DNA of 64,000 bases, from NCBI GenBank assembly GCA_947462335.1, contig OX381710.1, positions 4,464,001 to 4,528,000 of the forward strand, read 5' to 3'. Positions 11,037 through 63,117 of this stretch are shown one piece after another. The stretch is from Harmothoe impar (taxonomy: Eukaryota; Annelida; Polychaeta; Phyllodocida; Polynoidae). The position numbers were made by a program, and so were the translations under genes. The notes below the pieces were generated by a model. The model did not search any database and was not told the DNA's origin. It was given only the letters and a program-made list of their open reading frames with translations. Within the stretch, counting starts at the first letter, position 1; every line of letters starts with the position of its first letter.

Positions 11037-12115
11037 TTATTTGTATAGAACAGTTACCTTACAATTGTTGAAGGTGGCATTATGGAAAAGGCCTGGAGCA
11101 TTGGCACTTTTCTGGACATTTACCACAGATACCGTTGACTCATGAGGAGTTGACTCTTTAGGAGCTGACTCTTTTGGAATGCCAGCCAGAGTGTGGCTCA
11201 TAGACTTTCTGATGGTGTCTGGGGTCTTCGAATAGGATTCAATGCTCGCCTCACTTTTATGCCCTGTTACTGCTTTGATATCACTAGAAGACAAGCCAGC
11301 TTCTCTCAGTACAGTGACACATGTGGATCTGACGCAATGGTTGGTATATATTTGAGATAATTTGGCAATTTCTGAAATTGTGGGCATAAATTTGCCTATC
11401 GTATTAATGCCCACAGCAGATTTAGTGTACCAGATAGTGCTTAATTTCCACCCTTTGGCCTTAGGGGTCTGAAAAAAAGCTGGATTCGAAGGGGTTAGTT
11501 TGGACAGGTAGAACTTGAGTGTGTTAAGTGGACAGTCAGGTTTTCCAGTAGCATACATTCTTTGCTCATGTTCCCGACCATCCTGTGATAGCCCAGTGTG
11601 GTTCTTCTCGGCTGGGTTATAGGCCAAAGTTCCATACTCTATACCCTCCGAATTAGTTCTGAATATGATATCCTGTTGCTTGAGCTCATACAGACCCTCA
11701 CGGGCGCACCTGCCGAAATGTAGTGAGACTTCGTAGTATACCTTGTGCTGGAGGGTCTTGGGTGTGTTATGAGACAGAGTTCCAGAGGAGTACATGAGAG
11801 CCTTATCTGCCTTGGTAATAGGGGTGTAATGTGTCGATACATCTAACCCTGCAGCCTTATTGACCTTTATGTGGCCTTTTAGGACATTATTTGCCGAAAT
11901 AAAGGCTGGATCAGTAATTAAATTATAATTTACATTATGGGGAGGCTCGTTCATGTGTCTCTGTATGGCCGCCCTGATACACACTAACGACTTCTTGCTG
12001 TACTCTGTCCCCTCTTGTGTTCGTACTTGAGCATAGAAGCGTTTCAGCAGCTCGCACACATCCTTCTTAGGGAGTTATTTGAACTGCATAGGTTGGTCAG
12101 TCTCCAGGAGCCATT
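11037..12115 (-). pseudogene. Crypton-like tyrosine recombinase, exon 2 (DUF3504-type), one in-frame stop
   Basis: The longest frame (340 codons, from 12059) has the tyrosine-recombinase catalytic set. Counting from the GTG at 12059 these are Arg117/Arg120 in the LHFGRCAREG segment, the HCVR box (His241, Arg244), His267 in VTGHKS, and Tyr276 in SIESYSK. The N-terminal SSLxxIRAAIxRH-like helix is typical of the DUF3504 family, found in Crypton transposons and in domesticated ZMYM/KCTD-type host genes. A 3' splice site (TTCTATGTTACAG) precedes 12115, and the exon joins in frame to 12716-12362. A TAA at 12077-12075 interrupts the joined frame 13 codons into the exon, so this copy is probably inactive unless the stop is read through or is an assembly error. 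Confidence 0.85.
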
Positions 12116-13691: not shown

Positions 13692-13857
13692 TCCAACCAC
13701 TGAGTGGCTTGACATTTGGCTGACGGGTTCATCTTAGCCGCAATACCCAGGTCTGAAGGAGGCTGTGGAGGTGAGGCCAGGGCTGTTGACACTGAGTTAT
13801 GTCCATGAAGCCAGTCTTCCAATGGGCAATGGAATAGATTTTGTCACAGAATTATAA
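13692..13857 (-). repeat. ~165-bp repeat left of LINE element 1
   Basis: Matches 20376-20525. About 36 bases (starting CCAACCACTGAGTGGCTTGA) are identical and the rest is roughly three quarters identical. The two copies flank LINE element 1 as direct repeats. On the minus strand the right copy keeps an open frame that this copy has lost by an indel. Confidence 0.7.
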
Positions 13858-13916
13858 TTATAATTATAACTTGCTATAACTTGCTATCTTTTGAACTATT
13901 TGCAGCAATCTTCATA

Positions 13917-14711
13917 ATGTCCATCCTCATCTCTGGTGACTCTAGAGCGGTAGATCTGGCAGAGCTGGTTTCAACTGCACTTGGGAACAGCAACTACTAC
14001 ACTGTGAATGAATGTGCCAAGAGCTCCAGAGATGTTGGTAAGATCCAATATTACACCCTGCTTGAGCTACAAGAAAATGATTATGATGTTGTCATATTCT
14101 TGGCTGGGACATGTGATGTCACCAAAAAACGATACACCAATGGGAGGAGGGAAATATACTATCCACATCCAAATGAGGCTACATGTAGAGCTGTAGTATC
14201 GGTTCGCCTAAGTGAAATGATGAGAAAATGTCATGATTTTTTCCCCAACACCAAATTCATTCTGTGTACACTGTATGGTATGGACCTGCAAAGATTTAAC
14301 CATGCGGTAGTCATAGATCAGAAGCAATCAATGCTGAATCGCTCCATCAAGCTCTTGAAGGGGGATATTAAGTACATCAACAAACTCTATGGAGTTCCAA
14401 CTGTCAATCTACATACCATCTTCCACAGGAACAGGTATAATAGAACTAGATCTGGGAAGAAGACTAGTGCTCCTAGCAGGTTCGTGTGTCAGTACAACAA
14501 GAAGATGAAAGATGGCTGTCACCCTAAGAGTGACTATCAGCAGATTGTGGCTACAAGAATAGCCACTATCCTGAAATTGCAATTGCCATTACCATTGGCT
14601 GTCGTATTTGACCCTGAAATGGAGGACAACCTGTGGGATTTGGATGTGGAGGAGGAAGAGGAGGAATTGGATGCAGTTTCAGACAGGTTGCGCCAGATTT
14701 ACCTTGGCTAG
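13917..14711 (+). CDS. SGNH/GDSL-hydrolase-like protein of LINE element 1
   Basis: 264 residues from the ATG at 13917; the open frame also extends 12 codons upstream to a TTG. Seven codons in is the block I motif ISGDSR with the nucleophile Ser, at 13941-13943. Block III is represented by LAGTCDVT (about 14100-14123), with a Thr-Cys-Asp where classical esterases have an Asn-Asp, and block V by DGCHP (14511-14525), giving the catalytic Asp and His. The C-terminus is very acidic, with a run of glutamates near 14655. Esterase-like domains of this type are known in ORF1 proteins of CR1-type LINEs; their substrate is unsettled. A closely related ORF is in element 2. An alternative is a non-catalytic RNA or membrane adaptor. 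Confidence 0.8.
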   Translation: MSILISGDSRAVDLAELVSTALGNSNYYTVNECAKSSRDVGKIQYYTLLELQENDYDVVIFLAGTCDVTKKRYTNGRREIYYPHPNEATCRAVVSVRLSEMMRKCHDFFPNTKFILCTLYGMDLQRFNHAVVIDQKQSMLNRSIKLLKGDIKYINKLYGVPTVNLHTIFHRNRYNRTRSGKKTSAPSRFVCQYNKKMKDGCHPKSDYQQIVATRIATILKLQLPLPLAVVFDPEMEDNLWDLDVEEEEEELDAVSDRLRQIYLG

Positions 14712-16642
14712 CAGCTCTGACACTAGCTTATACACAGACTTAGCTCTGTTCCTTCCTGATGACATGTCTAATAGACCTTGCTTTCTTTTTTCTTTTTCCA
14801 GCTAGTGAACTGTTTAAATGGGCTGGAACATTTTTGATGATGGTCATGTTGGGGAGGGGGCACACTTCTACGAAGTTATAATGATTTCTTGGAAGCTTTT
14901 TAAAGTGCCACTTCCCTAAATATATGACAAATAGCTCATCAATAAATTTCTAGGTACTAGTCCCATGTTTGCTGTCCAAAATTCAAAATTTAAAATTTAA
15001 ATTTTAGATTACTAAAATCTTTTTGGATCTTTTTGCTAGTTTTAGATTTTTTCGGTATTTCGGATTTTCTATAGTCTTTTCTTTTTAATTAATCATAGTG
15101 CTAAGTTTAGTCTACTAATATTCTATGATTCTATAGATTTGGATCTTGATTGAAATGAACTTCGCAAATCATATACTAAAGGACTACTCCGTTTTTGATT
15201 GATTGAGTTGCTTTTTTTCAAACTCTGGATGGGTGAATCATGAAGGCTGAAATTAATGCTGCTAGAACTATCACATATGTAAGAAGTTATAATGACTTTT
15301 TACTTATGCTTATACCAATACATGGTTGTAGGCATAATGGGCAGAAGTTATAATGACTTCAGCCAAGGTTGTCACAGATGCTGCATTGTTTCACCCACAT
15401 AATGGTTTTTTGAGTACATAATCACTTGTCTATTTTTTTTTGAAACAATTGATGCGTATTACTGCATAATTTATGACTTACTTGATTCTGTCTATTATTA
15501 AGAGACTACAAAAAATAATGATCATGATTGAAAAATGAAAAAAGAGGGCATGAAGGTTGCATCCTCTCTGATGGGTAGTCGAGTATTCTTGGGTTGATAT
15601 ACGGTTATCATGATGCTGATTGTTCTAAGACTGTGTTTGAGTGTGTATATTACTAAGATATCTATAGATAATGCATTTGGTAAATTTGATCAGTAATGGT
15701 TATTCTTGTTCAGGTATTCGTATTTTTGACATTCGAGACATTTGTCATATAAGACTGCTTCTCATAGACCTGGTGACTTTAATTTTATGATTTGAAAAAG
15801 AACAATTGTTATTGCAAACTACGTTAAATATTTGTCATAATTTGGCTGTATTACTGATAATGTATCGCTGTGATGTGAGGCTGATTTATGAAATAATAAT
15901 AATGTTCCGTTTCTTGCTACATATAGTTCCGTGTTGTGTTGTGTTTGTTTGTTTTTCTCGGTCAGTAATTTAGTAATTTAGAGTAACTTAATCTATTTTG
16001 ATTGATTTCAATTTAACCTGACTTATCTATTACAACTTGTTGTTCCCACAAATATTTCTTATATTTCTTATATTTAATATTGGATTACTCACTCGTGAGT
16101 AACTATTTGTTATTGTGTTTTTTAAAGGGAAAAGTTAATCACTTATCTCCCTGTAACCTTATGTTCTCCCCCGCATGTGAGTAGGTGATCATGCTGTTAT
16201 ATCAAAGTGTATATCTGTATGTTATTCTATCTTATCTTATCTTTTTAATATTCCCCCTGGGCTTACCATGTGTTGTTTTTTTCCCTACAATAAATATATA
16301 TTGGCAGATTATTTTATAAATATAACTAAATATATGGTTAGTAAAACAAGGGTAAACATGGTCCCTTTTACTTCTATTTCTTTTTTTGTAACTGGACATT
16401 TGAATGACGATTCGAATGATTCCTGAAATGATCAATCCTGGGGTAAAGTCCCTAATTCCTAGATTTGTTCAAACCAACGTAGAGCTGCTCTCCATCACAA
16501 ACCTCTTGCAGAACATTAAGTTGTGAGATCTGCATGAGGTGGTCTGGGCTCTGGTTTGGTAAACTAGGGCCTACTATTTATTATTTTGTGTATATATTTA
16601 ATTTTTTGTACATTCATTGTTTGTCTTTATTTGTGATTGGGA
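14712..16642 (+). other. Long inter-ORF region of LINE element 1
   Basis: About 1.9 kb without a supported ORF between the two genes of the element. The motif GAAGTTATAATGACTT recurs three times (near 14872, 15292 and 15349) in slightly varied form. In element 2 the matching spacer is only ~770 bases. The length may reflect a nested insertion or a decayed ORF. I could not identify either. Confidence 0.5.
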
Positions 16643-19555
16643 ATGACGACTACTAGAGTATATGATTTTTTGAGAATGGGAGGACTAAAATTGGTACATC
16701 TAAACACAAGGAGCATGTATAAAAAAAGACAAGACATCTTTGATCAGCTGGACGGTACAGATATTGTGACCATGAGTGAAACATGGTTACATCCTGAATA
16801 TGACGACGATCTGATAAATTGGGATGGCATGAAGCTGTTCAGGCAGGATAGAGCGCATAAAAAAGGAGGCGGTATTGTTGTTTATATACGAGATGATTTA
16901 GACTGTGAAGTTGTCATTAGAAAAGACCTATGTATAAATACTAAAGACCTTGAGTGTTTTGTGATAGATATGACTCTGAAAAATGACACTAAGTTACAGA
17001 TTGTAACTCTTTACAGACAACCTAGAGGTAATTTGGAGAACTTCTTTTCACATGTAAAAAAACTGATGAAATTGTCTGACAAGAACAGTACTGAACAATG
17101 GTTACTTGGAGATATTAACATAAATACTTTAAAGGAAGGAATTCCGTCAAGTGTGGCGCTTAGTGACTTGTGTAAATTCAGAGGTTATCACAAATTAATT
17201 CATCAGTGTACGCGCCCATTTGGGAAATCCGTTGCTTGCCTGGATAATATTCTAACCTCCTATAATGGAGATATGTCGTCAGGTGTTCTAAACTTTTTGG
17301 TCAGTGACCATCTACCAGTCTATTGTGTCAAAACTAAGCTAAAAATTGAATATTTGAAAAAATCATTGCGTATACGCAATTACAAATACTTTGACATTGA
17401 GCTATTCAAGGATTGGCTTAGTGAGGCAGACTGGGAAGAGTTTTACACATTCAGGGATCCTGATGTGGCATGGATGTTCATTCTAAATCATATTCTTGAA
17501 TTTTTGGATGCAAATTGTCCTTGGGAAGAGGTTGATGTGGTTGATAAGCGCAACAAATGGATGACTGTTGACATTCTGGGTCTAATTAGGGAAAGAGAAG
17601 ATGCTGTCAATACCTTCCTTAAAACGAAAAAAGAACGCTATTTAATAATAGCAAAGAAATTGAGGTGTCGAATCAACAAGGCGATCACTACTGCAAAAGC
17701 TGATTATATCATGAGTTCCCTCAATGAAACTAAGGATGATCCAAAGAAATTTTGGCGCATTATCAATAACGTGATGAAGCCTGAGGTTTCTGTGGAACCA
17801 TCTTTATTAATAGGACAAGACGGTTTCATGAAAACTAAATTGGATTCTGTACAGTATCTTAATGACTTCTTTTCAGACATAGGAAAGGTCCTTTCAGATA
17901 CCATGACGGATAAAGGTAATCCCGAGAGAATTATCTTTAAGGAACCAGTAGACAGTATTTATCCTAACATTGTGGTTAACAGGTGTCTTGTAGATATACT
18001 CTTTAGTGAGATTAATATCAACAAGACTTCTGGTATTGAAGGGGTGCGATGTGATGTTTTGAAGACTGCCTTGAGATTTCTACTAGACCAGATGACTTGG
18101 TTGTATCAATTAAGCTTTGATCAAGGTATTTTTCCAACGAATTGGAAGACAGCTAGAGTTAGTCCTATACCTAAAGCTGGTAATCAGCGCCAGATTACAA
18201 ACTGGAGACCTATCTCTCTACTGCCTGTGCCTTCGAAAATTGCAGAAAAGCTCATGCATATACACCTGAGTGAAGTTCTGGAAAAGGATAATTTTCTTAC
18301 TGATAAACAGTTTGGCTATAGGCAAGGCAGGGGGACTGGGGATGCAATCTTCAAATTTCTGAATAATCTGTATGAAAACAGGGACAGAGGACATTTAACT
18401 GCTGCTTGTTATCTTGACCTTAAAAAGGCTTTTGACAGTGTACACCATGGCTACTTGATAGAAATCCTCGGCACCTTGGGACTACATGATTGTGTTCTAA
18501 ATTGGTTAATGAGCTATCTCACTGGGAGGGAACAATATACAAAAATAGGATCATATCAGTCCAGTTCTAGTAGTGTACGCTATGGGGTGCCTCAAGGCTC
18601 CGTTTTAGGGCCCTTATCGTTTATTATTTATATCAATGATGTCAGCCATGTGTTAGGTACTGCTGGACATTACATTTATGCTGATGACCTAGTAGTTTTC
18701 CATTCAGCAAATAGGATTGATTTAATAGAGGAACGTATGAATATCACATTAGATTCGCTGTCTCATTGGTTTGTGGATAAAAGGTTAACTTTAAATGTTG
18801 ATAAAAGTAAGATCGCATGGTATGGTTCCACTCAAAAACTACCTAAAGTGAGGGGCATAAAGTTTTGTTTAGATAACATGCCACTAGAAACGGTGGATTG
18901 TTATAAATACTTAGGTTTAAAGATAGATAGTGCCCTAAGCCTTGCCCCTGCCATGCGGGAACTCACCAGTAAGGTCAATCACAAACTCTTTAGATTCGGT
19001 AAATTCAGGGATGTCCAAACTGAATATGCGGCTGTGTTAGTTTATAAAGCTACAATAATGAGTGTATTCGATTACAGCAGTTTCTGCCATGAAGGTGCCA
19101 ATGGAGGGTTGTTAAAAAAATTGGATAGGATGCAAAAAAGGGGTTTAAAAGTTTGTTACAAGGGTAGGCACTTAAAGGAAGATGAAATGTATAAGCTGTC
19201 CAAACTGCCTTCTCTCAGGAGAAGACGGCAGGAATTGCTATTAACTTATATGTATAAACTGTCACATAATGAAAATATGTTAGATATGAGGCCTAGACGT
19301 GATGGCTTAAGGTCTGATAAGAAAATAAAATTTTTGGTACCTAGAGCTAGAAATGCAGGCTATACAAAATCACCATTGTACAGAGGAGTGGAATTGTGGG
19401 ATAAGCTTGGAGATTGGTACCAAACTAGTAAGGACAAATTAACATTCAAGAAAAGAATTAGGGCACTGGCTAATTTGGATGTACAAAACAAAAATCCCAG
19501 TGAGAGTGTTGTTGTGAATGACTTGTCACAGGACGAGTGGCCCAGATTGGTCTAG
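16643..19555 (+). CDS. Non-LTR retrotransposon polyprotein: EEP endonuclease + reverse transcriptase (element 1)
   Basis: 970 residues from the ATG at 16643. The N-terminal ~230 residues form an APE-type endonuclease: HLNTRSM (Asn), MSETWL (catalytic Glu), LYRQPRGN, LLGDINI (Asp) and VSDHLPVY (terminal Asp-His). RT follows: NWRPISLLP, QFGYRQGRGTGDA, CYLDLKKAFDSVHH, GVPQGSVLGPLSFIIYIND, then the active-site YADD at residues 679-682 (18677-18688) and a YKYLGLKID thumb-proximal motif. No RNase H or gag knuckles were seen. The C-terminal region contains VPRARNAGYTKSPLYRGVELW, typical of Jockey-superfamily/CR1-L2 polymerases. The protein nicks the target and copies the element RNA by target-primed reverse transcription. 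No frameshift or stop, so the ORF may be functional. Confidence 0.95.
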   Translation: MTTTRVYDFLRMGGLKLVHLNTRSMYKKRQDIFDQLDGTDIVTMSETWLHPEYDDDLINWDGMKLFRQDRAHKKGGGIVVYIRDDLDCEVVIRKDLCINTKDLECFVIDMTLKNDTKLQIVTLYRQPRGNLENFFSHVKKLMKLSDKNSTEQWLLGDININTLKEGIPSSVALSDLCKFRGYHKLIHQCTRPFGKSVACLDNILTSYNGDMSSGVLNFLVSDHLPVYCVKTKLKIEYLKKSLRIRNYKYFDIELFKDWLSEADWEEFYTFRDPDVAWMFILNHILEFLDANCPWEEVDVVDKRNKWMTVDILGLIREREDAVNTFLKTKKERYLIIAKKLRCRINKAITTAKADYIMSSLNETKDDPKKFWRIINNVMKPEVSVEPSLLIGQDGFMKTKLDSVQYLNDFFSDIGKVLSDTMTDKGNPERIIFKEPVDSIYPNIVVNRCLVDILFSEININKTSGIEGVRCDVLKTALRFLLDQMTWLYQLSFDQGIFPTNWKTARVSPIPKAGNQRQITNWRPISLLPVPSKIAEKLMHIHLSEVLEKDNFLTDKQFGYRQGRGTGDAIFKFLNNLYENRDRGHLTAACYLDLKKAFDSVHHGYLIEILGTLGLHDCVLNWLMSYLTGREQYTKIGSYQSSSSSVRYGVPQGSVLGPLSFIIYINDVSHVLGTAGHYIYADDLVVFHSANRIDLIEERMNITLDSLSHWFVDKRLTLNVDKSKIAWYGSTQKLPKVRGIKFCLDNMPLETVDCYKYLGLKIDSALSLAPAMRELTSKVNHKLFRFGKFRDVQTEYAAVLVYKATIMSVFDYSSFCHEGANGGLLKKLDRMQKRGLKVCYKGRHLKEDEMYKLSKLPSLRRRRQELLLTYMYKLSHNENMLDMRPRRDGLRSDKKIKFLVPRARNAGYTKSPLYRGVELWDKLGDWYQTSKDKLTFKKRIRALANLDVQNKNPSESVVVNDLSQDEWPRLV

Positions 19556-29395: not shown

Positions 29396-31340
29396 GTGAA
29401 AACGGAAAAAGGACTACTAGTCCCTACCTTGCACAACCACTGAATGCCTTGTTGACAAGGCTCACTATGCTTATGTGTACCATGGTTACCAAAGGCTCTG
29501 ACCAATCAGAGTCCAGGGATTTAGTCTGTGACCTCACTTCCTCTAGACAATCTCCTAGCAGAGTATTGGAGGATTTCCTAATATGGGAAACTATCTTAGA
29601 GCAGATGTTTAGGACTTAGGAGAATTTGTGTGGAGGTCCTCTGGGCCCAATGAATGATGAGGTGGGGCCCCTGTTTGACATTGTGGGTAGTGCAGTGTCG
29701 GTGGTACAGTTAGTGGTTTCGACTTGAATGTCTCATCAGGTGTGATTCATTTGGAGAATGCTGAGATTGATTATATCCTTATCAGATTCCCAAGGTGTAT
29801 ATGTTAGTTGAACTTTTAGAACAAGGTGGGACCAGGAGATGGGTCTTAGGGCCAAGTCAGTCCAGTTTTGTTTGCTTTATTTTGATGTGGTGGTGTGACC
29901 GAACATTAAGTGTCAGTAATCTAGAATAGTCTAGTTGTTAGGAGTGATCAAAAGTAAAGAGTTCAAAAATGTGTTAAGGGTGACTAAAATTGGTACACAT
30001 GATTGAATGACACTAGATTAAAAGGGCTTAGTTTGTTAATCTGGGCACCCATTAAGCAAAAGGGTAAAGGGTGGAGACCACGGTATTAGTGAGTGGCCTG
30101 TGTGTCAACAATGGAGCATAGGGTGTTTTGGTTGGACAATGTCCGCATGACGTGAGTGACATGTAGTTTCTTTGCCTGGGCATATGAGACTCTCTTGGTG
30201 TGTATCTTGTTGGGGAGACGGATAATTGAGGGTCGTGGGCCTAGGCCTAGATTAGTCTAGTAAGTTTAACCCATTCGGTGTGATGCTGCAGAGTCGATGC
30301 ATCCACCGTCTTTCCTCCACATTGAGTTCCGCGATTCCGGCAGGGGATCTCGGTGGGCTTTTTATGAAACTCAAAACTGTGATTTCCAAGCCATTCCATC
30401 TAGATGGTTTTTGCGGAGGAGGGGGGCATAGATTGTAATGTCGGCCAACCGGTTTGTCACGGTTGTGGTCTATGTCCCCATGGTGTCCCTGGAAACGGTC
30501 CATTATCCTTTCCAGGGTTTGGCCTACATATTGTACGCCACAGGTTTTGCAGGTAATGGCGTAGATTATGTTGGCGCTTTGACAGTTGACTGAAGTCAAT
30601 GTCCTGAACTTTCTGCCAGTAGTGGTTGATTGAATGAAACCACTCTTGTTAATTTTTGGGCAGTATCTACAGTTCAGAGGAGTGTTGCACGGGTACTTTC
30701 TAATGTGTGGGACCTTGGTGTCGGGGGTCTTTCGGCTGGTGGAGGCTCTCACTAGTTCGTCACCCAGGCTCTTGTTTCGCCTGTTGCCAAAGACCAGTTT
30801 GTGCTCGTGGAACTCTCGGGTGGTTTTGGTCTTTTTCATCTGGTCCCAATTCTCTGTGAGAATTTGTTTTATTGGGGGGTTGTGGGGGTTGTGGGTAGTG
30901 ATGCAATAGAATGCTTTAGGCCTACCAGTGCTGTTAGGTTTTTCTTTGGGCTTGATTAGTTCAGCCCTTGGTTGTAGTTTTGCCCTCGTTAGTGAATCTA
31001 TGAGTAGATTTCGAGGGTATTTCCGACGGAGGAAATGTGTGCAGAGCATCAGGGAATTGCGTAAGAATTCAGACTCTCTAGTGCAGATACGTTTTACTCT
31101 GATGAATTGTGAGTAGGGTATTGCTCTGACTACGTGTCTAGGGTGCTCTGAGGAGTACAGTAGGTAGTTGTGACTGTCGGTGGGTTTGCAGTAGAGATGA
31201 TGTATGATGCCATAGTTATTTTTGTAATACCTATAAGGGAGTCTTCAAATGGCATCGGTTGGCCGGAATGTTAAATTTATGGGCAAATCATGCCTGACTG
31301 ACAAAACCATGCCTGATTCAGTCAGTGGAATACTCCCTTT
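29396..31340 (-). mobile_element. Penelope-like retroelement, 5'-truncated
   Basis: An insertion of about 1.9 kb in copy B that is missing from the matching place in C (about 47500). On the minus strand it carries the end of a Penelope-type polymerase and its GIY-YIG endonuclease, then about 850 bases of non-coding 3' sequence. Boundaries are estimated from where B and C stop matching and could be off by tens of bases. No long inverted or direct terminal repeats were seen. Confidence 0.75.
30252..31244 (-). pseudogene. Penelope-like polymerase C-terminus with GIY-YIG endonuclease
   Basis: The frame is open from a TGA at 31247-31245 down to the stop at 30252. Upstream of the first ATG (31049) it reads through YCKPTDSHNYLLYSSEHPRH, the conserved thumb segment after the RT palm in Penelope-like elements. 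After the ATG come a cysteine cluster (C121, C127, C130), then the GIY-YIG nuclease: IIYAITCKTC (161-170), QYVGQT (173-178), Arg185, His189/His190 and a Glu in EERRWM (245-250). The RT fingers and palm are missing, so the element cannot move by itself. The nuclease half is intact. Confidence 0.88.
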
Positions 31341-55995: not shown

Positions 55996-56336
55996 TTAGT
56001 TGTTTTCGTCAGTGCCAGGTGATGAGATACAATGTCTTAAATCTTTTTAAATGAAAGAAATAGAAGGATGCTTCACATGGGGTTTAGGGGGGAGACACAG
56101 ATCCTCTTTTCTGCATGGCTGTCACATAGTCCCCTTTCAGTCAGCATCTTGCTTACAGTACTGTTTAACTAATGAGGTAGCATGCCGCTTCTGGTACCCC
56201 GGGGGACAATACCTCACCCTGCCCTATAGACCTACAAGGGCTGCATAGTAATTTAATGCACTGTGCATCCTTTTTCGTCATGATGCCTTAATGCAGGCCT
56301 TGTGAGTTTTTTTTGTTTTTTTTTGAAACATTTATC

Positions 56337-56342
56337 TTTATT
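56337..56342 (-). terminator. Polyadenylation signal of LINE element 2
   Basis: AATAAA on the minus strand, ~12 bases before the terminal A-rich tail. Confidence 0.75.
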
Positions 56343-56673
56343 CCTGAGTTTATTTACTTTTACATCGAGATAATAATCGCATTTGTGCTATGGGTGCACT
56401 CCCGTATGAAATAATATTAATCCCGTTTGCCACATTGTTTGTTATAATTCCTATAACTCAGGCCAGAAAGATCCCCCTCCTCCCACTTTTCTCAAGTGTG
56501 TGGAGGATCTTCTCGGGGGACCCTTTCCTTCTTTTAGAAGGTACAATATTATTTTAGTAATAGTCCGGTCCTGTTTAGACCTAGACTTAGCAGTATAGTT
56601 TACACTAGAGGTAGTCAAAATACCCTGATTTAGTTCATACAAGAAATCATCTTTCAAAAGGGAATATAAAAGA

Positions 56674-59559
56674 TCACCTTAACATTATAGGTACCACACC
56701 AGCCAGCCATTTCTTTCTGTCTAACTTAAATGAGTTGTGGTTGGGCAGGAGGCGAACAGGAGCAGGTAACGCATTCCATAACATGGAGCCATAGTGTTCG
56801 ACACATCTAAAATATACATCACAGTGAGGGGTTACTCTAAATAAGATTGGCCCTTGATGAGCCCTGGTTGGTACATATCTATTAACAGTATATTCAGTAT
56901 CATGAGCCCTTTTGTACATAAAGTTGAGGAGGTGAGCTTTTCTCCGATCCTCTAACATGGGTTTTTTAGCTAAGGCATGAACTCTGTCTGTGTCAGTAAG
57001 ATGATCTACCTTTAAACAAATTTTCAAACATCTATTTTGTGCGTACTGGAGGTCGTCTAAAATATATTGGGATGCCGAACAGAATAATTGGTCCCCATAA
57101 TCGAAGTAGGGTAATATTTTGGAAGAATAAATTTTGAGAGCTATGCTCTTTGTCATGGCTGCCCTTAGGTTAGCCAGGATATATGTCTTGTGGTTGATTG
57201 ATTTAAGTTGTTGTTTAACATGCAAATCATATTTCAAATGGCTATCCAGCATTACTCCAAGATATTTATATGACTGTACGACCATCAATTTGGACTCATG
57301 TAAATACAAGTTTATATGCATAGCATTCAATTTCTGTTTAGAGGCTGTAAAGGCCATGACTTTGGTTTTACCCGTATTTACCGTGAGTTTATTTTGAAGG
57401 CACCATAATCCAAAAATATCAAGACTCGACTGTAGACGCCTATGAATATTTTCCAGATTAACATCAGAATCAAAAATTACCGTATCATCAGCATATAACT
57501 TAATTTCAGAGTTTTTGACACAATTTGGTAGGTCATTCACATATAATAAAAACAATAACGGACCTAGTATTGAGCCCTGTGGGACACCGCAGACCACTCC
57601 CAGCGAATCAGAAAACATATGATTAACCTTTGTTTTTTGTACTCTATCACTTAAATAACTTTCTAACCATTTTAAATTATTATTTCTTATGCCATAATTC
57701 TCAAACTTACTTGATAGGATAGAGTGGTCTACGGTGTCAAAGGCCTTGCTCAGGTCAATAAATACAGCGACTGTTGGTTTAGCTACATTCAGGTTTCTAG
57801 CAATAATATCAGTGAAATCGGCTAGGGTGGCTATTGTAGACTTGCCAGCTCTAAAGCCCCCTTGATGACTCGATAAGATATTGTGTCTGGACAGGAAATT
57901 CATAATATGTTTATGCACAAGTTTTTCTATAAGTTTACAGGGGGTCGGTGTTAGCGCAATAGGGCGATAGTTCCCTACACATTTTGGGTTACCTGACTTA
58001 TAAATAGGTACAATTATAGCTGTTTTCCATTTCAGTGGTACACTGCATGAATTAAATGAACAATTGAACATATCTGCTACTCTTGCCAGGTCATGCATGA
58101 AGGCATCCTTGATTACCATGTTTGACATGTTATCTATAGCAGAAGACTTATGGACATTTATATTCTTTACAACCTTTTCAACCTCGTTTTGTGTGGTCCT
58201 AAAATCTAACAGATTTTCAGCAATCCTATCATCATATGGTCTCCATACATCATGCATGTCCTTTGATAAATTTGGGCCCACATTTGCAAAAAAGGAGTTT
58301 ATATACCCCGGTACATCAACTTCAGGTATGGGTAGGTTATCTAGTAGGCTCGTGAGCTCTACTGTGGCATGCTTCGGTGCGTCGGGTATGAGTTTTTGTA
58401 TTTTCCTCCAGAATTCAGTTGAATTACCCTCACTAGCTTTTAGTTCCTCCCGTATACACCTTCTTTTTGCTGACCTAGCGAATTTATTGCCCTCTTTCTT
58501 AGCTTTGTCAGCTTTAACTTTATCCGTAATATTCCCAGTAAGTCTTGCTTTGGACAGAAGGTTGTTTTTATCCCTCAAGACATTAACCATATGGTCAGTT
58601 ACCCATTCTTCCCTGTCTTCAGGAATTTTGAATGTTTTGACCGGGCACATTTTATCTAGAGAATTTTCTATAACATCATGCATTATGTCCCACTTGATAG
58701 CAACATCAGCAGTATTATCATAAACAGACCAATCATGGGCATCCATGTCTGCACCAAGTTTGACAGCATTGTACCTTTTATATGATCTGCCCACATGGGC
58801 TCTCTTTGGCCTTTTATCAGCACCCTTTTTTCTTATCATGTAGACAGCATAGTGGTCTGAGACATTAAGGTTCATAACACCAGACTCTTGTATAAATTGT
58901 GCATTTGTACAAATTACATCGAGTATTGCTTTTGAATTACCAACACAGCGCGTATAATCTTTAATGAGTATTCTAAGCCCAAAATCTTTCATTAACTTTT
59001 TGAAGTCCTTTACTCTTTCATCTCTTAAGGCTAGGTTAATGTTTATGTCACCAGTTAGTATTATTTCAATTTTGTTTCTTTCTGGAATGGCAGCTAAAGT
59101 TATTTTGAGAAGTCTAATAAATTCAATTTTTGAACCCCTGGGCGGTCTGTATGTGTTTACCAGAACTAAGCGCTTGTTGTTTGGTTTTTCAATGCGAATA
59201 CTTTGTATTTCAATATCTTTACAACTTTGATTTAAGTGGCTCAAGTCATATGCATCATGATAAATGTCCTGTCTTATGTATGTACACACACCACCTCCAG
59301 TTTTGGGGTTTCCATCAATATCAAATTCAAGCTCATCGTCAACCCAATTTCTGTCTACCCGGTGTACCACAAAACCAGGGAAACTATAACTCAGAGAATT
59401 TTGTGTGTCTTTAAACCATGATTCAGTAAAACTCATTATATCAAAAGGATTTTGATTCAATTCAATTTGTAATCTAGCATAGTTTGCATTAATACTTCGC
59501 GCATTCATATGGAAAACCTGCAAACCTCTCCTACCCATTAGTGATTGAACACTAGCCAT
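56674..59559 (-). CDS. LINE element 2 ORF3: EEP endonuclease + reverse transcriptase
   Basis: 961 residues from the ATG at 59559; the frame extends two codons further to a TTG. Endonuclease motifs: HMNARSI, SFTESW, NTYRPPRG, LTGDININ, AILDVICT and VSDHYAVY. RT motifs in order: NYRPIALTPTPCKLIEKLV, GGFRAGKST, VFIDLSKAFDTVDH, CGVPQGSILGPLLFLLYVND, YADD at residues 689-692 (57495-57484), KTKVMAF, and YKYLGVMLDS. The C-terminal part has HAKKP-like and RCVEHYGSMLWN segments of the CR1/L2 type. No RNase H. All catalytic residues I can check are present. It makes the first-strand nick and copies the element RNA. Only about 30% similar by eye to the element 1 protein, so it is a different family. Confidence 0.96.
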   Translation of the reverse strand: MASVQSLMGRRGLQVFHMNARSINANYARLQIELNQNPFDIMSFTESWFKDTQNSLSYSFPGFVVHRVDRNWVDDELEFDIDGNPKTGGGVCTYIRQDIYHDAYDLSHLNQSCKDIEIQSIRIEKPNNKRLVLVNTYRPPRGSKIEFIRLLKITLAAIPERNKIEIILTGDININLALRDERVKDFKKLMKDFGLRILIKDYTRCVGNSKAILDVICTNAQFIQESGVMNLNVSDHYAVYMIRKKGADKRPKRAHVGRSYKRYNAVKLGADMDAHDWSVYDNTADVAIKWDIMHDVIENSLDKMCPVKTFKIPEDREEWVTDHMVNVLRDKNNLLSKARLTGNITDKVKADKAKKEGNKFARSAKRRCIREELKASEGNSTEFWRKIQKLIPDAPKHATVELTSLLDNLPIPEVDVPGYINSFFANVGPNLSKDMHDVWRPYDDRIAENLLDFRTTQNEVEKVVKNINVHKSSAIDNMSNMVIKDAFMHDLARVADMFNCSFNSCSVPLKWKTAIIVPIYKSGNPKCVGNYRPIALTPTPCKLIEKLVHKHIMNFLSRHNILSSHQGGFRAGKSTIATLADFTDIIARNLNVAKPTVAVFIDLSKAFDTVDHSILSSKFENYGIRNNNLKWLESYLSDRVQKTKVNHMFSDSLGVVCGVPQGSILGPLLFLLYVNDLPNCVKNSEIKLYADDTVIFDSDVNLENIHRRLQSSLDIFGLWCLQNKLTVNTGKTKVMAFTASKQKLNAMHINLYLHESKLMVVQSYKYLGVMLDSHLKYDLHVKQQLKSINHKTYILANLRAAMTKSIALKIYSSKILPYFDYGDQLFCSASQYILDDLQYAQNRCLKICLKVDHLTDTDRVHALAKKPMLEDRRKAHLLNFMYKRAHDTEYTVNRYVPTRAHQGPILFRVTPHCDVYFRCVEHYGSMLWNALPAPVRLLPNHNSFKLDRKKWLAGVVPIMLR

Positions 59560-60332
59560 TATCAATCAGGAAACATGTAACATAGCCCTCGACTTTGTGG
59601 CTGGTACCTTTGGTTGTAAGTGAGAAACAAAAAACAAATACAAACTCTGCTATTTTGCAGGTAATAGTAATGAACAATTTAGGTCTATTTGGACCTTGTA
59701 TACATTTTCCCAAGTCTCTTCCACTAGACCTCGGCTTATAAGCCATCTAGAAGAAGATGAAGATATATTCCTTAAAGTAGAGAAACGGGTGAACGGCTTT
59801 TGTGCTCCTCACACTTGGACTTTTGCAATTTTTATGATATGTAAAGTAATATTCACCCACAATTCTTAGGTTTGTAGGGTGCCCTGAGCCAGGACTTAAC
59901 TCTAAGTCTTAAAACTAGTTATACTACAAGGTCAATAATACAAGAAACCTCCTTTTTGTCATCACGATAATACTGTCAGTAATTGTACATCAATAAGCAG
60001 TATATTCCAGGGTAAATAAATAACTCAGTATAGTATGTGGCATCGGTAAGCAGGTGTTAGACACTCATAAGTTAAGCAGCGACAGGTACCGGTAATCACA
60101 AAAATTATTCGCAGGACTATCAGAGAATTAAGAGCCAGTACCGGTAAGTATGTATAATATAAAGTGAGGTACGGACAAGTACCGGTAAGCCCCGAGTTAC
60201 CCATTGACTTTAGTACTATTGGTATTATGAACGGATTAACATACAGAATCATGTGTTAACATCAATACATTTTAGGTACCGGTAAGCCCCGAGTTACCCA
60301 TTGTCTTTAGTACTACCGGTATTATGGACAGA

Positions 60333-61067
60333 TTAACATACAGAATCGTGTGTTAACATCAATACATTTTTGGCAAAACAGTTTACAAAATCCTGGCCCC
60401 ATTTCTTGAGCAGGTTTGTTGTTGGATGAATTCCATCTGACCCTAGCACATGGTATTTAATGTTTAATATCCCGTCTCTTTCTTTAAAATAATGGTTTGC
60501 GAGCCATGGCGTAGCTACCTGATTGGCTTCATTCAGTTCCACAACTACTTTGTTAAAGGCATGTATTGCATTATCAACAAGGTCTTGTTGGCCTGATTGG
60601 ACATTTACTACTTTCTTGGCTAATTCACAACCTGTAAGTGGACACATAACTACTTTAGCATTTGGGTGATAAAAATATAACCAGTCAAGTCCTACTTCTG
60701 TGTATGCACACAGGTGGGTGTTGAGATATTCTGAGTTGTACCAGTTACATGTGATGGAGCTAGGCCTATATTGTTTCTGGGTCACGTCACATTGTCCCCC
60801 AAACACGTATATGATATCTCTTGGGTAACTTCTCAGGTGGAATTCCGCCTTGACTATGAGTTCTTTGATAGTGGCTCCATCAAAGTGAAAGACCATATAT
60901 CGAGTGCTTCCAGTGTTTACATTTTTAATGTGATCATGTAGGAATTTCCCTCGGGAGTCACAGAAAATCACATTTTTTGGTGCAGGTTTCCAATACTTCA
61001 GCATAGTGTCAACATGGTCCTGCCATGCTTTTTGGAATTGAGGGGTTTCATCGTTTATAGATGACAT
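60333..61067 (-). CDS. LINE element 2 ORF2: SGNH-hydrolase-like protein
   Basis: 244 residues, ATG at 61067-61065. Block I is FCDSRGKFL with Ser38 (Cys-Asp-Ser in place of Gly-Asp-Ser). Block III is FGGQCDVTQK (G91, Q92, C93, D94), matching LAGTCDVTKK of the element 1 ORF. Block V is DGIHP with Asp211 and His214, at the same spacing from Cys-Asp as in element 1. The Ser, Asp and His triad is thus present but the oxyanion Asn of classical family members is replaced by Cys-Asp. It lies between ORF1 and ORF3 as a free-standing gene; in many CR1 elements a similar esterase is part of ORF1. Substrate unknown. It may act on lipid or carbohydrate esters, or be a scaffold. Confidence 0.82.
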   Translation of the reverse strand: MSSINDETPQFQKAWQDHVDTMLKYWKPAPKNVIFCDSRGKFLHDHIKNVNTGSTRYMVFHFDGATIKELIVKAEFHLRSYPRDIIYVFGGQCDVTQKQYRPSSITCNWYNSEYLNTHLCAYTEVGLDWLYFYHPNAKVVMCPLTGCELAKKVVNVQSGQQDLVDNAIHAFNKVVVELNEANQVATPWLANHYFKERDGILNIKYHVLGSDGIHPTTNLLKKWGQDFVNCFAKNVLMLTHDSVC

Positions 61068-61423
61068 GATGTTACCGGCACTTGTTCACCAAATGCTTAC
61101 TTTGTTAACCGCTCCAATCTATCAATACCGTAATATCACGTGCACTGATTATCATAGAGTTTATAACAAGGTTTCAATTTGATATATATATTATTTATTA
61201 AGAAGATTTTGCATTTCTTGTTGGTCCAAGCAATATCAATGTCGTAATTTAACGTACTTTGATATCAGTTAGGTAAACAAGCATATGTTTCAGTAGGCCA
61301 AAATTAATATTAAACGTCAGGTGGGTAGTGGTATAGATTTCTAGAGGGAAATATCTGGCAATAAATTGAATTTCAGTACTTCGGGGTATTTCTGTTACTA
61401 CTCTTTAAGGTGCCAGACTAAAC

Positions 61424-62926
61424 TTATACTTGACGTCCATTTCCCTCAGCATCAGCTAGGGCCTGGGTTGAATGGTTTGAGGCATTTTCATCTGCTGCTA
61501 TGAGAAGGTCTTGACGTAGTCTCATGAGGATAGAGCCCATCAGGTTGCAATCGTCACGTACGTTTTCTTTTGTCATCTCTTTGACTTGACCAAGGTGGTA
61601 TCCAGCTCCCCATTTCTGGCTGAAAGTTGCCTCGTAAAGCATTTTTCCATTTGTCTCAAGTAGGGTATTGTTCAGCTCAGCATTGAATGTGTATTTGGCC
61701 TCATTTAGGTCATACATGAGATCCTCCTCAGCTTCCTCAATATCTCTGGTTTTCTTGAGTTTTCTGCCTGCTAGCATGCAGTCATACGGGGTCTCAAGTT
61801 TGAGTATTGCCTCAGCCAGTTCATCTTGGTTACACTGTAGGGCCAGCTGATGTTGGAAACCTCTTTCTGTGGAGTCGTAGAGATAGTTTTCATACGGTAC
61901 TTCACATTTGTAGAGATTACTCATAGGAGCATGGCAACTCTGGAAGGCGATTCCATCAGGAGTGTCTTGAGTCTTGGCATTTGCAAGGGTCAGGTCTTGG
62001 GGCAAGTTGTTTATTCTTGCGTATGGGTATGACTCTCCCTCAATGACAATTGTCAGGTTTTTCACGTGGGATTTAATGTTCCTGGATCTCGCTAGGGCAT
62101 TTATGGCATTGAGTTCACCCTGTTTTAGACGGTCAGCAGGGGAGAGATCGTCCTTGAGAGAGACACCAAACCATTGATTTACATGTCTGAGTTTGTTGAC
62201 ATTTTGAAAAATTTGCTGCTTGAATTGATTTGATGAGAAGACCACTACAATAGGCCTAGCCCGTATTTTGCGATTGTCACCTTGTCTCGGTTTGATGAAT
62301 CTACCCCTTCTATAAACAGATTCGGCTGCCGTGGAGGTGAAGTTTACTTGGAGACATGTCAACAGGTCGTCAACAATTCCTCTCAGGTTCTGGCCCTCTT
62401 CTTCCCTATATCCCTCGAGTACTAGAATTTTCCTTCTATTTTCTTCCTCGAGGAATACCAGTTTCTTTTCTGTTGACTCAACGCCTTTGTAAATTGTATT
62501 TACCTTTTTCGCCAGGGATTCATGTAGATCATCCGTGTCACCAATACTTTCCTTATTGTTGACTATGTCTTTTTCGGCATTAGACAGACGTATATGGACG
62601 GTGTCAAACATGTGCGCTATCTTGACAGCGCGTTCGCTTCCCTCGGTGAACCTTTTTTCAATCGTATCGAAAAGACTCAAAATCTTCACAGTGGTGGCCT
62701 CTTGCTCCCTTAAACGTATGTCCAGCTCATTTATCCTCTCAATGGCCGACTGGTGGGTAGCATTTGATCTTAGTAGTGGTTTGTAGTCCCTTGTGACGGC
62801 TGCAGGCGGGTCATACGTCCATGTTGTCGGCGCGTCCAGCCCTAGAAAGGCCGCAGCGGCTCCCGTGTCATCCGCATTGACTCCGGGCGCGGTCGGGTCT
62901 TGATCCTCCTCGTTGTTGACGGACAT
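61424..62926 (-). CDS. LINE element 2 ORF1: coiled coil + L1-ORF1p-like RNA-binding domain + NADAR/YbiA-like domain
   Basis: 500 residues, ATG at 62926-62924. Residues 1-55 are low-complexity. Residues ~60-165 are a heptad-like coiled coil. Residues ~165-250 resemble the L1 ORF1p RRM (RKILVLEGY, then YRRGRF and RPIVVVF), and 255-300 its C-terminal domain (GVSLKDDLSPADRLKQGEL). Residues ~326-476 match the NADAR (DUF1768/YbiA) pattern: APMSNLYKCEV, STERGFQHQ with Glu354 in the family's SSE position, a GR at 387-388, TNGKMLYEATFSQKWGAG with Trp439-Gly440, and NLMGSILMRLR (461-471). NADAR proteins cleave N-glycosidic bonds in riboflavin intermediates or in ADP-ribosylated guanine. A NADAR fused to a retrotransposon RNA-binding protein suggests removal of ADP-ribose marks or use of a nucleotide metabolite, but that is inference. 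No stop or frameshift. Confidence 0.85.
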   Translation of the reverse strand: MSVNNEEDQDPTAPGVNADDTGAAAAFLGLDAPTTWTYDPPAAVTRDYKPLLRSNATHQSAIERINELDIRLREQEATTVKILSLFDTIEKRFTEGSERAVKIAHMFDTVHIRLSNAEKDIVNNKESIGDTDDLHESLAKKVNTIYKGVESTEKKLVFLEEENRRKILVLEGYREEEGQNLRGIVDDLLTCLQVNFTSTAAESVYRRGRFIKPRQGDNRKIRARPIVVVFSSNQFKQQIFQNVNKLRHVNQWFGVSLKDDLSPADRLKQGELNAINALARSRNIKSHVKNLTIVIEGESYPYARINNLPQDLTLANAKTQDTPDGIAFQSCHAPMSNLYKCEVPYENYLYDSTERGFQHQLALQCNQDELAEAILKLETPYDCMLAGRKLKKTRDIEEAEEDLMYDLNEAKYTFNAELNNTLLETNGKMLYEATFSQKWGAGYHLGQVKEMTKENVRDDCNLMGSILMRLRQDLLIAADENASNHSTQALADAEGNGRQV

Positions 62927-63094
62927 TTTAAAATGTCGCTCTCTCTTCTTTCTTTGGGGTTTCGGAGGTAAATTTATGTTCTCCAGTTTCCCTGTGTACT
63001 TATACAGTCTTCAGACGAGAATTGTGAGGTTAGTGGTGATAAAAGATGGGATAATCCAACAAATAGTGGAGCAGCCGTTCAGTGCGGTCTCTAC

Positions 63095-63117
63095 TCGTTG
63101 GCGGCCATCTTCATCTT
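63095..63117 (-). promoter_or_regulatory. YY1-type motif at the 5' end of LINE element 2
   Basis: The element starts with CAAGATGAAGATGGCCGCCA on the minus strand. AAGATGGCCGCC fits the YY1 consensus, and human L1 has a YY1 site at a similar place (within the first ~20 bases), where it fixes the transcription start. An analogous role here is inference. Confidence 0.45.

Follow-up and report, generated by a model that had tools for sequence, protein, structure and literature searches.

A C-terminal NADAR domain in the ORF1 protein of LINE retrotransposons from the polychaete Harmothoe impar

Known counterparts and organization of the element

The NADAR family comprises enzymes that take ADP-ribose off the bases of DNA and RNA. 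NADAR domains have already been located inside retrotransposons: a Repbase query placed them in ORF1 of several Tx1 LINEs of Crassostrea gigas, the same paper reports them in Pol of Gypsy LTR retrotransposons of Ectocarpus, and RNA processing was guessed as the role of the retrotransposon NADAR (PMC12477816, published in 2025). In the accessible part of that paper the LINE domains are mentioned only in passing, and no further report of a LINE NADAR was found in the open-licence PMC literature, as far as its excerpts extend. The nematode SNA-3 has NADAR domains within an RNA-processing complex, and mutation of active-site homologues impairs function (PMC9303266). LINE-1 ORF1p-like (Type II) ORF1 proteins consist of a coiled coil, an RRM and a CTD (PMC4120745), and the Type IV ORF1 of CR1/L2 LINEs is an SGNH esterase (PMC3905857, PMC4120745).

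The locus described here lies in a window of 64,000 nucleotides (the whole stretch of DNA that was analyzed) from the genome of Harmothoe impar. It has a NADAR domain in a LINE ORF1 like the C. gigas elements and is a retrotransposon-borne NADAR like that of Ectocarpus Gypsy Pol (PMC12477816); the former comparison was made by the published mention alone, and the reverse transcriptase here is not shown to be of Tx1 type. Since a NADAR in LINE ORF1 is already known from C. gigas, the fusion in the window is not the first, and the statement of the earlier note, made from the sequence alone, that no standard LINE model was known to include this activity has been superseded. Compared to Type II ORF1 proteins with the same coiled coil, RRM and CTD, the window ORF1 has an additional C-terminal NADAR; compared to the Type IV proteins with the same SGNH fold, the SGNH protein here has an ORF of its own, next to an ORF1 of Type II. 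SNA-3, in contrast, is a host trans-splicing factor with three NADAR domains (PMC9303266). The structurally characterized NADARs of Phytophthora nicotianae (8bau) and Escherichia coli (YbiA, 2b3w) differ from the window domain, which is part of an RNA-binding protein and lacks the equivalents of K50, Y84, W89, R93 and D130 (P. nicotianae numbering). The features of the element are as follows.

56316..63111, minus strand: complete LINE of 6.8 kb, running from its 5' end at 63111 to its 3' end at 56316
62927..63111, minus strand: 5' UTR, starting AAGATGGCCGCC; junctions in two copies
61424..62926, minus strand: ORF1, 500 aa, with coiled coil, RRM/CTD and NADAR
62435..62755, minus strand: ORF1 coiled coil, residues 58-164, a single long helix in the AlphaFold model
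61967..62434, minus strand: ORF1 RRM and CTD of LINE-1 ORF1p type, residues 165-320
61499..61951, minus strand: ORF1 NADAR domain, residues 326-476
61865..61867, minus strand: codon of Glu354 (E43 of the P. nicotianae NADAR), invariant in 53/53 copies
61844..61846, minus strand: codon of Leu361, at the position of the essential lysine (K50) of canonical NADARs; Lys in 3/53 copies and 2/14 families
61631..61633, minus strand: codon of Glu432 (E125, the catalytic Glu of the YbiA subfamily), invariant in 53/53 copies
60333..61067, minus strand: middle ORF, 244 aa, SGNH/GDSL hydrolase fold
60179..60370, no strand: 97-bp direct repeat in two copies, which extend from where the middle ORF ends in the direction of ORF2
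56674..59565, minus strand: ORF2, 963 aa
58852..59505, minus strand: APE-type endonuclease, ORF2 residues 21-238 (PF03372, E=9.7e-6, 25.9 bits versus a cut-off of 24.5)
57250..57984, minus strand: reverse transcriptase, ORF2 residues 528-772 (PF00078, E=3.7e-35)
56316..56324, minus strand: 3' poly(A), after the AATAAA-containing 3' end

The window element is a young APE-type LINE, whose ORF2 combines a reverse transcriptase (PF00078) with an APE endonuclease (PF03372). Its ends were defined by a copy on contig C15, with which the identity of 99.8% breaks off at both ends into different flanks; twelve further loci stop within 5 bases of the same 5' point, and a run of nine A terminates the 3' end in both near-identical copies. 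No target site duplication was found beside these two copies, the C15 copy lying in repeated flanks, and they had no common junction sequence indicative of site-specific insertion, as judged from two sites only. The ORF1 product resembles LINE-1 ORF1p in its coiled coil, RRM and CTD and has a NADAR at its C-terminus, the Type II organization being evident from the AlphaFold model and a fold match; PF02994 was absent from the Pfam matches. The middle ORF has the fold of an SGNH hydrolase, with DSR and DGIHP motifs present in the window copy and degenerate in some of its relatives. Against PDB entries the window ORF2 scored 42 bits with R2 and 33–34 bits with LINE-1 ORF2p, in a comparison without reference Tx1, CR1 or L2 reverse transcriptases; a clade name was dropped, the PDB scores favoring R2 or LINE-1 depending on the family. 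The short C-terminus and the reverse transcriptase motifs of ORF2 look CR1/L2/Jockey-like.

The window contains other mobile-element features. A second, different LINE at 13809-19552 (plus strand) has an SGNH/GDSL ORF (PF13472, E=8e-5, under the cut-off) upstream of a 972-aa ORF2, which has a reverse transcriptase, a weak endonuclease match and 31% identity to the ORF2 described above. The ORF at 11040-12074 (minus strand) matches DUF3504 and, weakly, QRICH1 and phage integrase, and is presumably Crypton-like; a 330-aa ORF at 30255-31244 (minus strand), whose match to GIY-YIG is weak (E=0.0014, below the cut-off), is presumably Penelope-like.

Retention of the NADAR domain in a radiation of LINE families

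Searches of the 1.51-Gb Harmothoe impar genome yielded at least 86 matches to ORF1, at least 150 to the middle ORF and at least 47 to ORF2. Within 5 kb, at least 54 ORF1-middle ORF and at least 20 ORF1-ORF2 pairs were present, all on the same strand and with ORF1 upstream; among the 86 ORF1 matches listed, the middle ORF followed in 47 and ORF2 in 20. Conversely, upstream of the 47 ORF2 matches listed, ORF1 was matched in 19 and the middle ORF in 28. The frequent lack of an upstream ORF1 fits 5'-truncated LINE copies, albeit part of it may be an effect of which matches were listed. A 476-aa database protein of the same architecture (P0003) used as a query gave 89 genome matches, a few of them in common with those of the window ORF1 and all extending, as judged by eye, to residue 469 or beyond. 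Sixteen loci were fetched with this query; in 14 of them ORF1 is followed by an ORF2 endonuclease-like stretch, which was not seen in the flanks of the other two, L032 and L044.

The 60 own-genome ORF1 loci (L001-L046 and L048-L061) were reduced to 51 copies by omission of nine short or broken ones (L012, L013, L021, L025-L030), L031 and L033 being retained despite their short length (314 aa). Together with two database proteins (P0001, P0003) they formed 14 families at 60% identity, so the fusion proposed for one locus recurs in many LINE copies, as the earlier note had suggested looking for. Downstream of ORF1 in ten non-window families, a reverse transcriptase was found in all ten and an endonuclease-part match in nine; in the family of L053 (L067) the latter begins only at ORF2 residue 319, and in several copies of the non-window families ORF2 is frame-broken. 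The middle ORF was seen in the families of L048, L059 (L065), L057 (L066) and L053 (L067), weakly in that of L050, and was unmatched in those of L031, L034, L040, L049 and L051. In other sequence sets relatives were few: two matches with the full-length query, one with the NADAR region and two, one of them new, with a profile; none of 32 pattern matches in viral contigs was confirmed as a relative. The database proteins P0002 (295 aa) and P0004 (255 aa, from a 973-base contig) cover the N-terminal half only.

The NADAR/YbiA-like domain claimed for the ORF1 C-terminus was confirmed by a PF08719 match of 69.2 bits (curated cut-off 35.1) and by a match to the YbiA fold, and all 33 members of the alignment matched PF08719 at E<=0.001. 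Mean NADAR identity among the 14 family representatives was 0.34, and only 8 of 151 columns, including E354 (E43) and E432 (E125), were invariant among them. Neutral evolution of the segment, named in the earlier note as a possible refutation, was not observed: pooled over 11 independent copy pairs, the NADAR had a dN/dS of 0.048, between the values of the RRM/CTD (0.039) and the coiled coil (0.082), and the tail had one of 0.155. Reverse transcriptase and NADAR distances of 11 families were correlated (r=0.84, Mantel p=0.0001), and both trees contained the groups L031/L034/L040, L001/L048 and L053/L049/L051, some of them modestly supported. The selection, the presence of the domain in all members and this correlation indicate that the NADAR has most likely long been carried with its LINE; across a deeply diverged set of LINE families it has been maintained by selection.

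Relatives lacking the segment, the other possible refutation, proved to be rare. The first 320 residues of ORF1 alone, used as a genome query, gave 126 matches. Out of 91 uninterrupted copies spanning these residues, 84 reach a frame length of 435 aa or more, enough to contain a NADAR as judged by length only, and seven have shorter frames: three of these match the NADAR past a stop or frameshift (C1:84094472, C2:106254308, C19:7310284), and four were judged by length only. Judged by frame length, this query revealed no family devoid of the domain. As judged by eye, 78 of the 86 listed ORF1 matches reached residue 430 or beyond, and among the eight ending earlier five were front halves of frame-broken copies. 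A single copy (C5:47257390) seems to have lost the NADAR through an internal deletion into ORF2.

Active-site residues and other NADARs of the genome

According to the accessible part of PMC11543638, E43 and E125 hold the distal ribose, K50, R79, W89, R93, W133 and, through water, D130 hold the pyrophosphate, and Y84 stacks on the adenine; efficient hydrolysis of ADP-ribosyl-guanine requires the lysine (K50 in P. nicotianae, K95 in E. coli C7). Equivalents of E43, R79, D86, E125 and W133 are present in the window copy, which is changed at K50 (Leu361), Y84 (Thr), W89 (Ile), R93 (Glu) and D130 (Ser). It therefore lacks the E43 and K50 pair of guanine ADP-ribosyl hydrolases, with E354 present and Leu361 in place of the lysine, and was not assigned to that functional class; it has the Glu, rather than Asp or His, that marks the YbiA subfamily at the E125 position (E432 in 53/53 copies). 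YbiA too differs at Y84, D86 and R93, and the full set of contacts of the 8bau structure was present in none of the LINE copies compared. Lys stands at the K50 position only in L057, L058 and L059, which are early branches within their half of the tree with moderate support, and the other 50 of the 53 copies have L, M, I, V, T or S there; because canonical NADARs have this Lys, it is probably ancestral and was lost more than once. The W133 position is W in 45/53 copies and otherwise Y or F.

The NADAR load of the Harmothoe impar genome is very large: a PF08719 search that started from 3484 first-look candidates gave 150 scored matches, every one exceeding the family cut-off, and also found matches in three of 14 named control genomes. 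This search further revealed another LINE family (L075 and L076, found later and outside the 53 copies), in which ORF1 is followed by an endonuclease-like stretch. The aligned L075 keeps E43, K50, W89, E125, D130 and W133, as does L076 by sight, and is changed at R79 (Glu), Y84 (Thr), D86 (Val) and R93 (Lys); three of its six kept residues (K50, W89 and D130) are lost in the window copy. The same six key residues are present in at least four short, apparently standalone NADAR frames (183-268 aa, L071-L074), which we infer to be host genes. L072-L074 lie within 27 kb on C21 (30.058-30.085 Mb), perhaps as a small host gene cluster, and a reverse transcriptase fragment is located near L071. In the tree, the LINE NADARs fall to one side of the host standalone and reference NADARs with a support of 60/26 only, a topology that is compatible with a single origin of the LINE NADARs without showing it.

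Possible function of the LINE-borne NADAR

The earlier note had proposed that the element may carry its own ADP-ribosyl-guanine hydrolase, a proposal that is supported in part: the NADAR is real, belongs to a LINE, recurs in many related copies under strong purifying selection and has both catalytic glutamates invariant in 53/53 copies. The case for ADP-ribosyl-guanine as the specific substrate is weakened, as Leu361 replaces the lysine and Y84, W89, R93 and D130 are replaced as well; given that the published lysine mutants are defective, the window copy may hydrolyze ADP-ribosyl-guanine poorly or not at all. The residues compared make such an activity plausible in some LINEs of this genome and doubtful in that of the window. 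The suggestion in the earlier note of Glu354 as the control residue for an assay likewise stands in part: in E. coli C7, as described in the accessible part of PMC11543638, the Gln variant of the equivalent residue was inactive and the Ala variant gave no cell rescue, but Ala had a minor effect in vitro, which makes Glu354 alone a weak in-vitro control.

As a tentative reading, which we prefer although it falls short of being probable as a whole, the domain would act as an RNP-tethered ribosyl-N-glycosidase that cleans base adducts off the element RNA or cDNA, with an altered specificity in the window family and a substrate that we infer. The RRM of LINE-1-type ORF1p binds single-stranded nucleic acid, with RNA preferred (PMC4120745). 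ORF1p oligomers would coat the element RNA, so that the NADAR would ride on the RNP and could act in cis on modified bases of the element RNA or cDNA, reversing a host-made base adduct either as counter-defence or as damage repair. Such a role would resemble that proposed for viral NADARs and macrodomains; the former have been suggested to counter host ADP-ribosylation (PMC9503650), and NADARs are the only hydrolase family found to reverse RNA guanosine ADP-ribosylation (PMC11833690), both as stated in the accessible text of these papers. In LINE families with the key residues including the lysine, the substrate would most likely be ADP-ribosyl-guanosine in RNA or single-stranded cDNA. In the window family, where the ribose-binding glutamates are kept and most pyrophosphate and adenine contacts are lost, the activity has probably moved towards another, related N-glycoside or towards weak hydrolysis aided by tethering.

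Purifying selection and the invariance of the two glutamates are also what a conserved binding pocket would show. A NADAR that is now a non-catalytic ORF1p module, its glutamates holding a ligand on a binding or oligomerization surface for ribosylated RNA, NAD-derived ligands or a host protein, is a genuine possibility, albeit a rather doubtful one: it would account for the loss of the K50, Y84, W89, R93 and D130 equivalents in the window copy and for the L, M, I, V, T or S at the K50 position in 50/53 copies, but less readily for ribose-coordinating glutamates that are invariant in all 53 copies at a mean family identity of 0.34, or for a W133 position that is aromatic throughout (W in 45/53, else Y or F). 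We consider it improbable that the domain is a YbiA-like N-glycosidase of host metabolites (of the riboflavin-intermediate type) relieving metabolic damage unrelated to nucleic acids. The TIGR02464 match (E=2.2e-16) and the Glu at the YbiA-subfamily position agree with it, but the 60.5 bits of that match are below the cut-off of 73.7, the genome already has the four or more short NADAR frames that apparently stand alone and keep the six key residues, and the fusion to an RNA-binding ORF1p favors a nucleic-acid substrate. That ORF1-NADAR is a host or foreign gene adjoining a LINE, or an assembly artefact, is refuted by the occurrence on another contig of an almost identical element with the same two ends, the strict polarity of the ORF1-middle ORF and ORF1-ORF2 pairs found, and the ORF2-like frames after ORF1 in other families; its attribution to a retrotransposon ORF1 in the earlier note was correct.

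An extension of the tethered-glycosidase reading, speculative and unlikely to be right in full, is that the whole LINE radiation carries a tethered nucleic-acid de-ribosylase directed, as a counter-defence, against host ADP-ribosylation of bases in the element RNA or cDNA, in which the L075 type would be ADP-ribosyl-guanosine hydrolases and the window family a new base-adduct N-glycosidase built on the same glutamates. If true, this would imply a novel host defence in which transposon nucleic acid is labelled by ribosylation, and the LINE NADARs may more generally be a sign that this host defends itself through ADP-ribosylation of nucleic acids. The LINE domain is not a decoration: it is co-inherited with the reverse transcriptase, is under selection similar to that on the RNA-binding core and has invariant catalytic glutamates. 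This single genome offers LINE families that keep the six key residues, others whose site is remodelled, and short NADAR frames, also with the six residues, that apparently stand alone, so that the question of why retrotransposons carry a NADAR can be tested directly. Longer frames with the domain are also present in this genome: in L077 (C2:97875200-97876700) a NADAR is located near the C-terminus of a 1153-aa open frame, and about a dozen other PF08719 matches likewise fall in frames of more than 1000 aa.
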